Assembly (NCBI GenBank): GCA_017553625.1
Contig: JAFZKP010000009.1
Span: 1 to 64,000 of the forward strand
From: Bacteroidales bacterium
GTDB lineage: Bacteria; Bacteroidota; Bacteroidia; Bacteroidales; F082
DNA: 64,000 bases
Reading direction: 5' to 3'
Of the stretch, positions 5,081-8,203 are shown piece by piece. The translations under genes and the position numbers were made by a program. Position 1 is the stretch's first letter; each line of letters starts with the position of its first letter. The notes below the pieces were generated by a model, which searched no databases, had not been told where the DNA came from, and worked only from the letters and a program-made list of their open reading frames with translations.

Positions 5081-8000
5081 ATGGAATATAATTTTGAAGA
5101 AATCGAGAAAAAATGGCAGGAATACTGGCGTGAAAACAAGGTGTATCAGGTTGAGATAGACCACAATAAGCCGAAATTTTATGTTTTGGATATGTTTCCG
5201 TATCCTTCGGGCGCGGGACTTCATGTCGGTCATCCTCTTGGATATATCGCATCGGATATCTACGCCCGCTACAAGCGTTTGAAAGGCTTCAACGTGCTTC
5301 ACCCGATGGGCTACGACGCCTACGGACTTCCGGCGGAACAGTATGCCATCCAGACTGGAACGCATCCGGCAATCACGACGGAGAAAAACATCAACCGCTA
5401 TCGTGAGCAGATGGATAAAATCGGTTTCTGCTACGACTGGAACCGCGAGGTGCGCACCAGCGACCCTCATTATTATAAATGGACGCAATGGACGTTCATC
5501 CAGCTTTTCAATTCTTACTATTGCAACCAGGCGAAACAGGCGCGTCCTATCGCCGAACTCGTTGATGTCTTCAGCAAACAAGGCACAGAAGATCTCGATG
5601 TGGCTTGCACTAAACTGTTGAGCTTCACTGCAGCCGAATGGAACGCGATGAGCGAGAAGGAACAGCAGGAAACGCTGATGAACTACCGTTTGGCATATCT
5701 CGCCGACACTATGGTCAACTGGTGCCCAGAGCTTGGCACAGTGCTCGCCAACGACGAGGTCCAAGACGGACTTTCCGTGCGCGGTGGCTATCCCGTCATC
5801 CGTAAGTCAATGAAACAGTGGCTGCTGCGTATCACCGCATACGCTGAACGTCTCCTCCAAGGTCTCGAGACCCTCGACTGGACTGAGTCAATAAAAGACG
5901 TACAGCGTAACTGGATAGGCAAGTCAATGGGTGCATCCGTTTTCTTCACAGTTGCTGATAAAGATATTTATTTTGAGGTCTTTACAACACGTGCCGACAC
6001 ATTGTTCGGTGTCACTTTCATGGTGCTTGCTCCTGAACACGAGATGATTGACCAGCTCACCACCGACGAACAGCGCGCCGCTGTTAAGGAATACGTCACC
6101 TGGGCGAAAAACCGCTCAGAACGTGAGCGTATGTCGGAAGTTAAGAAGGTGAGCGGTGTGTTCACAGGCTCCTACGCCGTCAACCCGTTCAACGGCACCC
6201 GCATCCCGATTTGGATTTCAGACTATGTCCTCATGGGCTACGGCACCGGCGCCATCATGGCAGTGCCGGCTCACGACAGCCGTGACTTTGCCTTCGCGCG
6301 TCATTTCAACCTCCCAATCATTCAGGTGGTTGCAAAACCTGGCGAGGAGCCGTCAGACCCTGCCACGTGGAGCGAGTCGTTCGACGCGAAAGAGGGCGTG
6401 CTCGTGAATTCGGAGTTCCTCAACGGTCTCACAGTGAAGCAGGCTATTCTAAAGATGATAGAGGAACTTGAAAAACGTGGCATAGGCAAAGGCAAAACCA
6501 ACTATCGTCTCCGTGACGCCATCTTTAGCCGTCAGCGCTACTGGGGTGAGCCGTTCCCGATTTATTACAAGGACGGGATGCCTTACGCAATGGATGTCAA
6601 TAAGTTACCTCTTGAATTGCCTTCCATCGACGCGTACAAACCTACCGAGACTGGTGAGCCGCCGCTGGCACGCGCAAAGAACTGGGTCACAGAGGAAGGT
6701 TATCCAATTGAGACAAACACAATGCCTGGTTTTGCCGGCTCAAGCGGCTACTATCTCCGCTATATGGACCCGCACAACGAGAACGAATATTTCTCCAAAG
6801 AAGCCAATAATTACTGGCAAAACGTCGACCTCTACATCGGTGGCGCAGAGCATGCGACAGGTCACTTGATTTATTCACGTTTCTGGAACAAATTCTTGTT
6901 CGACCTCGGAATCGCTTGCAAAGATGAGCCGTTCCAGAAGATGGTGAACCAGGGAATGATACAGGGACGTTCAAGCATCGCCTACCGCGTCAATATGGAG
7001 AAGATGTGCGAGGATCTTGTGTGGAAGTTGTTGAAAGACAAACAGATGGGCGTTGAGTTTGAACGCGACCACAAAGACGGTCACCGTCGTTTCGACTTCT
7101 TCTGCCCCGAAAAAGGTCTGCTTATCGAAATCAACAGGATGGATAGCTTGGAAAAAGTTGCCGAGCCGTGGCGTCAGTTCGCCGATGAGAAAGGCTACAA
7201 GCTTCTCATGATTCCAATCGTTGATGTCGTTAACGATTTCGAGCAGGGAACCGACTATGTCGAACAGCGTATCAAAGATTTCATCGCCGGTAAGGATATG
7301 CCTGCATTTGTTGATGGTGTGGCGTATAGCAGAGGCCCGATGTTCATTTCCAAGAACTGCAAGGACCGTGAGCTGTTCAGCAACCCGATTTTGGTAGATA
7401 TCAACATCGTACATAACGATATCCTTGATACAGAAGCGTTTAAAGCTTGGCGTGATGACCTCAAAGACGCTCAGTTTATCTATGAAAAAGACAAGGACGG
7501 CAACGACATTTTCGTCTGCGACTGGATGATTGAAAAAATGTCGAAATCGAAATTCAATGTCCAGAATCCTGACGATTTGGTCGCAAAATACGGTGCTGAC
7601 ACTCTGCGTCTCTATGAGATGTTCCTCGGTCCTCTCGAGCAGTCCAAGCCATGGGATACCCAAGGAATTGAAGGCACTTTCCGCTTCCTGAAAAAGTTCT
7701 GGAAACTGTATTCGGAGATAAGCGACGAGCCTGCTACAAAAGAAGAGCTGAAGGTTTTGCACAAGCTCATCAAGAAAGAGGAAGAAGACATTGAGCGTAT
7801 ATCGTTCAACACCGTCGTCTCAGCTTTCATGATTTGCGTCAACGAACTGACCGATATGAAATGCAACAAACGCGAGATTTTAGAGCCTATGGCAATCATG
7901 ATTTCGCCTTACGCACCTCATATCGCCGAAGAGCTCTGGCATCAGATGGGTCACAACGACAGCGTCGTCAACCAGCGTTTCCCTGAGTTTGATGAGAAAA

Positions 8001-8203
8001 ACGTGGTCGAGAACACATTCCTCTATCCGGTCTCGTTCAACGGCAAGAAACGTTTTGACCTCGAGTTGCCTCTCGACATGAAGCAGGACGGAGTGCAAAA
8101 TGCGGTCGTCAACGCGCCTGAAGCCAAGAAATGGCTCGAAGGCGTCACCATCCGCAAGGTCATTTTCATCCCTAAGAAGATCATCAACATTGTGGTTGGC
8201 TAA
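5081..8203 (+). CDS. leuS: Leucyl-tRNA synthetase with an inserted DUF559-like (PD-(D/E)XK) domain
   Basis: Charges tRNA-Leu with leucine. I place the start at the ATG at 5081 ([12 protein letters not shown]), giving 1040 residues; the in-frame codons upstream do not look like protein. Visible signatures: the class I HIGH motif as HVGH (48-51) after PYPSGAG, the CP1 editing domain (about 240-420) with [13 protein letters not shown], and KMSKS (819-823). The enzyme is about 100 residues longer than Bacteroides LeuRS (about 940). The excess is residues about 639-752, between [13 protein letters not shown] and PMFIS. This part reads like a DUF559/Vsr-type domain: [33 protein letters not shown], then a helix-strand ending KGYKLLMIP. 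The rest of the catalytic core looks intact, so the enzyme is probably active. Confidence 0.96.
6995..7336 (+). other. Inserted DUF559/Vsr-like domain within leuS
   Basis: Codes for LeuRS residues about 639-752. The order of elements matches DUF559 endonuclease-like proteins: an N-terminal helix with Glu ([13 protein letters not shown]), a basic strand (VEFERDH), the core [16 protein letters not shown] with Asp672 and Glu683, then a helix and strand ([13 protein letters not shown]) and a final helix ([10 protein letters not shown]). The usual DUF559 ending 'IELDG..H' is here IEIN, so a metal ligand is changed and nuclease activity is doubtful. It lies just before the segment leading to KMSKS, where LeuRS family members tolerate insertions. 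Confidence 0.7.

Follow-up and report, generated by a model that had tools for sequence, protein, structure and literature searches.

The window, i.e., the whole stretch of 64,000 nucleotides that was analysed, carries on its forward strand a leuS gene (L002) whose product, leucyl-tRNA synthetase (LeuRS), contains an in-frame insert related to the DUF559 family. The insertion site of this LeuRS is referred to as site C, and the features of the locus are the following:

5081..8203, + strand: leuS, leucyl-tRNA synthetase, 1040 residues plus stop (open reading frame, frame, Pfam domains)
5222..5233, + strand: HIGH-type motif HVGH, residues 48-51 (invariant columns in the alignment)
6992..7342, + strand: DUF559-like in-frame insert, residues 638-754, 117 residues (comparison with insert-less relatives, Pfam)
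7010..7012, + strand: Glu 644 (insert position 7), first acidic residue (E in 73/74 site-C inserts)
7094..7096, + strand: Asp 672 (insert position 35) of 'RFDFF' (D in 72/74 site-C inserts)
7127..7135, + strand: 'EIN', residues 683-685 (insert positions 46-48), which corresponds to E-x-K/D (72 of the 74 inserts have E at position 46, the other two D)
7343..7516, + strand: right flank, residues 755-812, remainder of the leucine-specific domain (insert state follows it among LeuRS alleles)
7535..7549, + strand: KMSKS motif, residues 819-823 (invariant columns in the alignment)

The protein was assigned as LeuRS by its HIGH-type and KMSKS motifs, both occupying invariant columns in 51 aligned LeuRS, and by Pfam matches to the editing domain (residues 276-463), to class I synthetases and to the anticodon domain (residues 890-1001); the length of 1040 residues, the frame, the coordinates and the intact motifs had been given correctly by the first-pass annotation. 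It is the sole LeuRS of its genome among the matches listed, three further matches being weaker than these (E > ~5e-8), in an assembly that is 86.7% complete, and the insert is the single DUF559 match of that genome. Comparison with insert-less relatives, from which seven identical LeuRS were dropped, revealed that the insert takes the place of about 4-5 residues in a standard hairpin turn, 'YR(I/V)xGTNxFVS', and that the segment pointed out earlier as residues 639-752 is real, with boundaries (638-754) which are 1-2 residues wider. Alignment to solved LeuRS sequences located the insert to the first hairpin of the region preceding KMSKS, which we take, in name and limits, to be the leucine-specific domain. 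The insertion point in this hairpin is a place of variable length, and no comparable domain is found at the insert position in the three aligned solved chains (1h3n, 2v0c and 9tjv). In the flavobacterial LeuRS L069, L070, L071, L147 and L154 a different sequence lies at the same site, with 52 to 116 residues between the anchors, where otherwise 23 are found.

As to the identity of the insert, the DUF559 profile (PF04480) scored 17.3 bits (E 0.0044) against the whole window LeuRS, which is under the cut-off of 20.6 bits, and marginally above this cut-off against the isolated insert (20.7 bits, E 3.9e-4) and against a slightly longer piece (21.0 bits, E 3.0e-4). The sister insert of L050 reached 29.9 bits, and all of 14 diverged site-C inserts matched DUF559 in Pfam at E up to 1, the best at 4.2e-7, the next family, DpnII-MboI, being matched by 7/14 with a best value of 0.0026. 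Further, a profile made from diverged site-C inserts finds PDB 3hrl, an endonuclease-like structure, at E 1e-6. These matches support the LeuRS insert as a captured domain of the DUF559 nuclease family, presumably of PD-(D/E)XK fold. The observation of the first-pass annotation is confirmed overall, the profile score of the window copy itself lying at the cut-off.

Within 74 distinct site-C inserts the PD-(D/E)XK residues Glu (first helix), Asp and Glu are in register, and over 80 sequences, element-type DUF559 copies included, these E, D, E positions are shared at >=90%. Position 48 varies (N 36, K 32, R 3, S 2, E 1) and is never D, and the motif E-x-D-G-x-x-H after the catalytic Asp, as taken from the element-type copies, most of which have it, is replaced in the window by IEINRM. 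The earlier claim that the last catalytic position is altered, IEIN standing for IE-D-G..H, therefore holds for the window, but not as a uniform loss, as Asn is found in 36/74 and Lys in 32/74 inserts and the other three acids are nearly invariant; the change at position 48 is best read as variation within the family. Some site-C copies are degenerate (L216, L189 and L186). Cutting by the window domain is doubtful: with Asn at the Lys/Asp position and no DG..H motif, cleavage appears unlikely. The retained acids point to a metal site which may still be relevant, perhaps in nucleic-acid binding; the RNA-binding or structural module suggested at first is hypothetical.

The insert is patchily distributed. 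The window's genus comprises 36 genomes, of which seven were unscored for want of a LeuRS stretch across the site; the insert is present in 24 of the 29 scorable ones, the window's own included, and absent in 5. In four of the genomes lacking it the remaining LeuRS is 94-96% identical, so LeuRS works also without the insert. Among 24 genomes belonging to different families of the order, outside that of the window, some with a partial or no LeuRS, the same search gave none with a match across the insert, and a profile search of an order sample (Bacteroidales, as judged by named relatives) found it in at least 30 of 393 genomes, all mapping to the same site. In a phylum sample of 395 genomes the best match, apart from that in the genome of the window itself, had an E-value of 1.9e-13, and of the other loci read from this search none is at site C.

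On a quick LeuRS core tree made without the insert columns, presence of the insert needs 18 state changes, gains and losses being indistinguishable from this tree, in which 57 of 115 inner branches are well supported. The tree holds 118 rows, 58 of them insert-bearing and two (L202 and L204) unscored at site C, after LeuRS under 880 residues and near-copies over 96.5% had been dropped. For the domain itself, 80 sequences, selected among 113 non-redundant ones together with the window copy and L054, were aligned and used for a tree, copies with X, with fewer than 85 residues or with less than 30 bits being left out. Here all 35 site-C rows are set apart by a single branch (support 100/99), and this branch, which divides them from the other DUF559 copies, is long; the window copy is not among the element-type ones. 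Distances of insert and LeuRS core are correlated (Mantel r 0.65, none of 2000 permutations as high, 24 of the 58 insert-bearing rows), and the site-C branches that lie deepest (L187 with L189, L185 with L186, and in addition the partial L216) belong to lineages which lie apart in the core tree, where the first four genes appear as L234, L236; L232, L233. Taken together, we infer one insertion early in Bacteroidales followed by many losses, a direction which the tree alone does not give.

Traces of such losses can be identified. Scraps of the insert edges without the domain, e.g., 'VNKEKM', are found in L024, L026, L064, L065 and L082, and a weaker scar, of the right edge only, in L028; by their sequence these six rows are in-frame deletions of the insert. 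L066 sits in an insert-bearing clade, yet from the hairpin to about residue 812 it is of the insert-less type: its best identities reach 91-98% to the left of the site and 93-94% beyond residue 830, and at third codon positions its identity with three members of this clade is 25-44% in the tract versus 43-83% in the flanking stretches, the minimum of 43% belonging to stretch 600-634. L066 is accordingly read as a clean insert loss by tract replacement. L079 was considered as a second such case and was dropped, as its third-position identities do not settle the matter. Exchange is also suggested for L061, where by protein identity the insert and the right flank are close to insert-bearing lineages on an insert-less background, the case being unclear at third codon positions.

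How often the nearest neighbour of a LeuRS has the same insert state was determined along the protein: this holds in 86% for residues 758-797 and in 82% for residues 778-817, versus a mean of 59% (0.594) outside residues 600-860 (60 rows, like-labelled ones of more than 85% identity having been collapsed), a signal to which co-adaptation within the rest of the leucine-specific domain could add. Compared with the window gene, L003, L004 and L040 differ strongly in the insert and in residues 755-812, at synonymous sites too, though the remaining LeuRS is close (for L003, 95-98% identity per stretch outside insert and right flank); between some alleles of the window's clade synonymous divergence of insert and right flank is saturated and that of the core is not. 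The insert with its right flank thus appears as a local exchange hotspot in leuS. In 196 close pairs, limited to a core dN under 0.06 and with saturated dS pairs kept outside the medians, the insert has a median dN of 0.132, dS of 1.40 and omega of 0.080, versus 0.035, 0.94 and 0.035 for the LeuRS core. The insert is a maintained protein domain under purifying selection, looser than that on the enzyme, and its higher dS in some pairs fits segment exchange.

DUF559 domains were found, by the same profile, in frame within long open reading frames of other genes throughout the phylum. The hosts are:

MetH: L143, L151 (Pfam); L153, L157 (resemblance only)
RecG: L146, L148 (Pfam); L149, L152 (resemblance only)
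Methylmalonyl-CoA mutase: L160 (Pfam)
GATase_5 protein: L150 (Pfam)
HisA/HisF-type protein: L114 (Pfam)
HsdR: L129, L200; HsdM: L217 (Pfam)
Type ISP and other methylases: L144, L145, L156, L158, L205, L206, L211 (Pfam)
Polysaccharide enzymes: L218, L219 (Pfam)
ValRS: L197, L199 (Pfam)
Class I synthetases with DUF5915, presumably IleRS: L207, L208 (Pfam)
LeuRS site A (editing domain), 18 LeuRS of the phylum and order samples: L117, L121, L147, L154, L191-L196, L198, L201-L204, L209, L212, L213
LeuRS site B: L142, L159

The expectation that housekeeping synthetases rarely gain such domains is contradicted in this phylum, where DUF559 occurs at three LeuRS sites, in two ValRS and in two probable IleRS; three LeuRS (L191, L192 and L193) carry it at sites A and C together. 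In the domain tree the site-A copies fall among those of MetH, RecG, ValRS and others. In MetH and RecG the domain lies at apparently the same place in several genomes. Many site-A and site-B insertions carry palindrome-like linkers, and matching inverted repeats, which translate as Ser/Pro/Gly/Glu-rich linkers, flank the domain in 9 of 13 non-site-C reading frames tested, 8 of them with a hairpin-like arm, counts which are to be read as those of a test run without a shuffled control. In this test nothing over threshold was obtained for L142, L193 and L148, the match of L153 is unrelated and that of L145 is without a hairpin. No inverted repeats surround the domain in the two site-C genes tested, the window gene and L050, and it is hence domain homology that connects the site-C inserts with the element type.

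Different states of site A occur within a single genus, whose LeuRS group with those of flavobacteria in the core tree. Site A was read at 30 loci out of 60 genomes with a match, and DUF559 is present in 6 and absent in 24 of these LeuRS. In one of the six (L249) the palindromes are gone and the motif His is missing, so that empty, full and eroded states coexist; judged by these changes, L249 is the intermediate to be expected on the way from a fresh insert to a resident domain. In the same genus other short in-frame insertions, e.g., tandem GTCGAAA-type units, are seen in the site-A loop (L244, L253, L257, L263, L265, L252, L256, L260, L262, L264, L266, L251, L261), and as a consequence this editing-domain loop may be a general landing place. 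Elsewhere, the HsdR-like reading frame L125 has, by eye, a GIY-YIG-like nuclease domain in frame in addition to DUF559. A strict end-hairpin pattern of one Flavobacterium-type element gave five matches in 2 of 8 genomes, four of these matches being the LeuRS copies' own ends; the genome of the window has no match. The idea that the element ends form a high-copy REP family was dropped because of these few matches.

Based on these data, the reading which we consider probable, if with clear reservation, is that the insert is the resident descendant of a once-captured DUF559 reading frame whose relatives are mobile, and that it binds with little or no cleavage. Across the phylum, relatives of the insert have the appearance of mobile in-frame elements, consisting of a DUF559 reading frame, often between inverted repeats, in many housekeeping genes. 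The LeuRS insert would go back to a single in-frame capture of one such nuclease reading frame, at an early stage of Bacteroidales, with a hairpin turn at the surface of the leucine-specific domain as its place of entry. Nothing would be spliced; the insert is assumed to fold as a separate domain on a variable loop, and LeuRS would tolerate it for this reason. The window domain is probably metal-binding and nucleic-acid-binding. Vertical descent under purifying selection would keep the insert, in-frame deletion or replacement by insert-less alleles would remove it, and occasionally it may have moved to another lineage together with its right flank. What counts against this reading is that acids so nearly invariant would not be expected without catalysis, that neither site-C gene tested has inverted repeats, that the branch between site-C and other copies is long, and that the core tree leaves the direction of its 18 changes undecided.

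The strongest rival, unlikely as we judge it, assumes a selfish cassette of homing-like type that does without splicing: the nuclease carried by LeuRS would cut insert-less leuS near the hairpin, repair would copy the insert with its right flank, and copies would then degenerate and vanish. The 18 state changes of the patchy distribution, the flank 758-817 as the best predictor of insert state (0.86 and 0.82 vs 0.594), the foreign insert and flank of L061 in an insert-less clade, the saturated synonymous divergence of the segment beside an unsaturated core, and the conserved acids next to some degenerate copies are all consistent with it; the homing-like role would concern relatives of the K48 type. 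However, the tract is one-sided and confined to the same structural domain, so that co-adaptation could give part of the signal; the exchange in L066 runs toward loss; L061 is unclear at third codon positions; about half of the inserts have Asn at position 48; a cleavage site is only hypothetical; and the distances of insert and core largely agree. Equally doubtful, on the same sequence signatures, is the broader form of this idea, namely a protein-level homing cassette, permanent in an essential synthetase and converting insert-less leuS together with its flank, which would derive from phylum-wide in-frame mobile nuclease elements that build multidomain housekeeping enzymes.

A gained function, with the domain binding or trimming tRNA-Leu or another nucleic acid beside the synthetase, or regulating LeuRS, was judged quite improbable: purifying selection, the near-invariant acids and the position in the leucine-specific domain would agree with it, but the domain is missing from the four genomes of the genus whose LeuRS is otherwise 94-96% identical, which renders it dispensable for charging, and any ligand is hypothetical. 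An elaboration specific to LeuRS and unrelated to DUF559, for which the marginal Pfam score of the window copy and the unrelated expansions which Chryseobacterium and further flavobacteria have at this site might be quoted, is very unlikely in view of the DUF559 matches of all 14 diverged inserts (best 4.2e-7), the 3hrl match of the insert profile at E 1e-6 and the E, D, E positions common to the 80 sequences. For an insert lying in frame in an essential gene, removal as an intein or intron before LeuRS becomes active, or an origin by faulty assembly, might be considered, but both are hardly credible given the protein-level purifying selection on it, window positions 6500-7900 having no Rfam match, the LeuRS no splicing-domain Pfam match, and the same insert recurring in tens of separate genomes, so that it is no assembly artefact. 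A known defence-system protein was likewise dismissed, there being no PADLOC match.

Among known systems, homing endonuclease genes and inteins are patchily distributed, are exchanged locally together with the DNA beside them, and have degenerate copies and losses, and the LeuRS insert resembles them in each of these respects; unlike them it has no splicing part, and its cutting and biased inheritance are putative. As the states observed comprise empty, flanked, eroded, resident, scarred and lost ones, a comparative system is at hand for how a selfish domain may join an essential protein, and whether a nuclease inside a synthetase drives its own allele becomes a testable question. No report of DUF559 inside a synthetase was found in the literature searched, where 'leucyl-tRNA synthetase' and 'DUF559' never occur in one paper, nor was a full-domain element, its repeated use of LeuRS or a resident LeuRS clade found there. 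Compared with the leucine-specific domain of the solved LeuRS, the window enzyme differs by the additional domain in the first hairpin. With DUF559/Vsr-like endonucleases (PF04480, 3hrl), among them the Caulobacter DUF559 protein VsrA, proposed in the part of the source consulted as a Vsr-like mismatch endonuclease (PMC12907096), the insert shares the order and spacing of Glu, Asp and Glu and the profile, whereas it sits in a synthetase and has E-x-N/K in place of E-x-D-G..H. Repeated in-frame insertion into unrelated genes, tRNA synthetases among them, is likewise described, in the sections consulted, for the palindromic elements within coding genes of Rickettsia (RPEs; PMC10969869) and for the REPs inside genes of other bacteria, tRNA synthetases included (PMC3733652). 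According to the same sections these elements are small, REPs measuring 20-40 bp and RPEs about 150 bp, and they add at most 82 residues, whereas the DUF559 stretch contains a whole nuclease-family domain and its window copy is without inverted repeats. In-frame palindromic elements, so far known as short repeats, are thus joined here by a whole nuclease-family domain which recurs in core enzymes.
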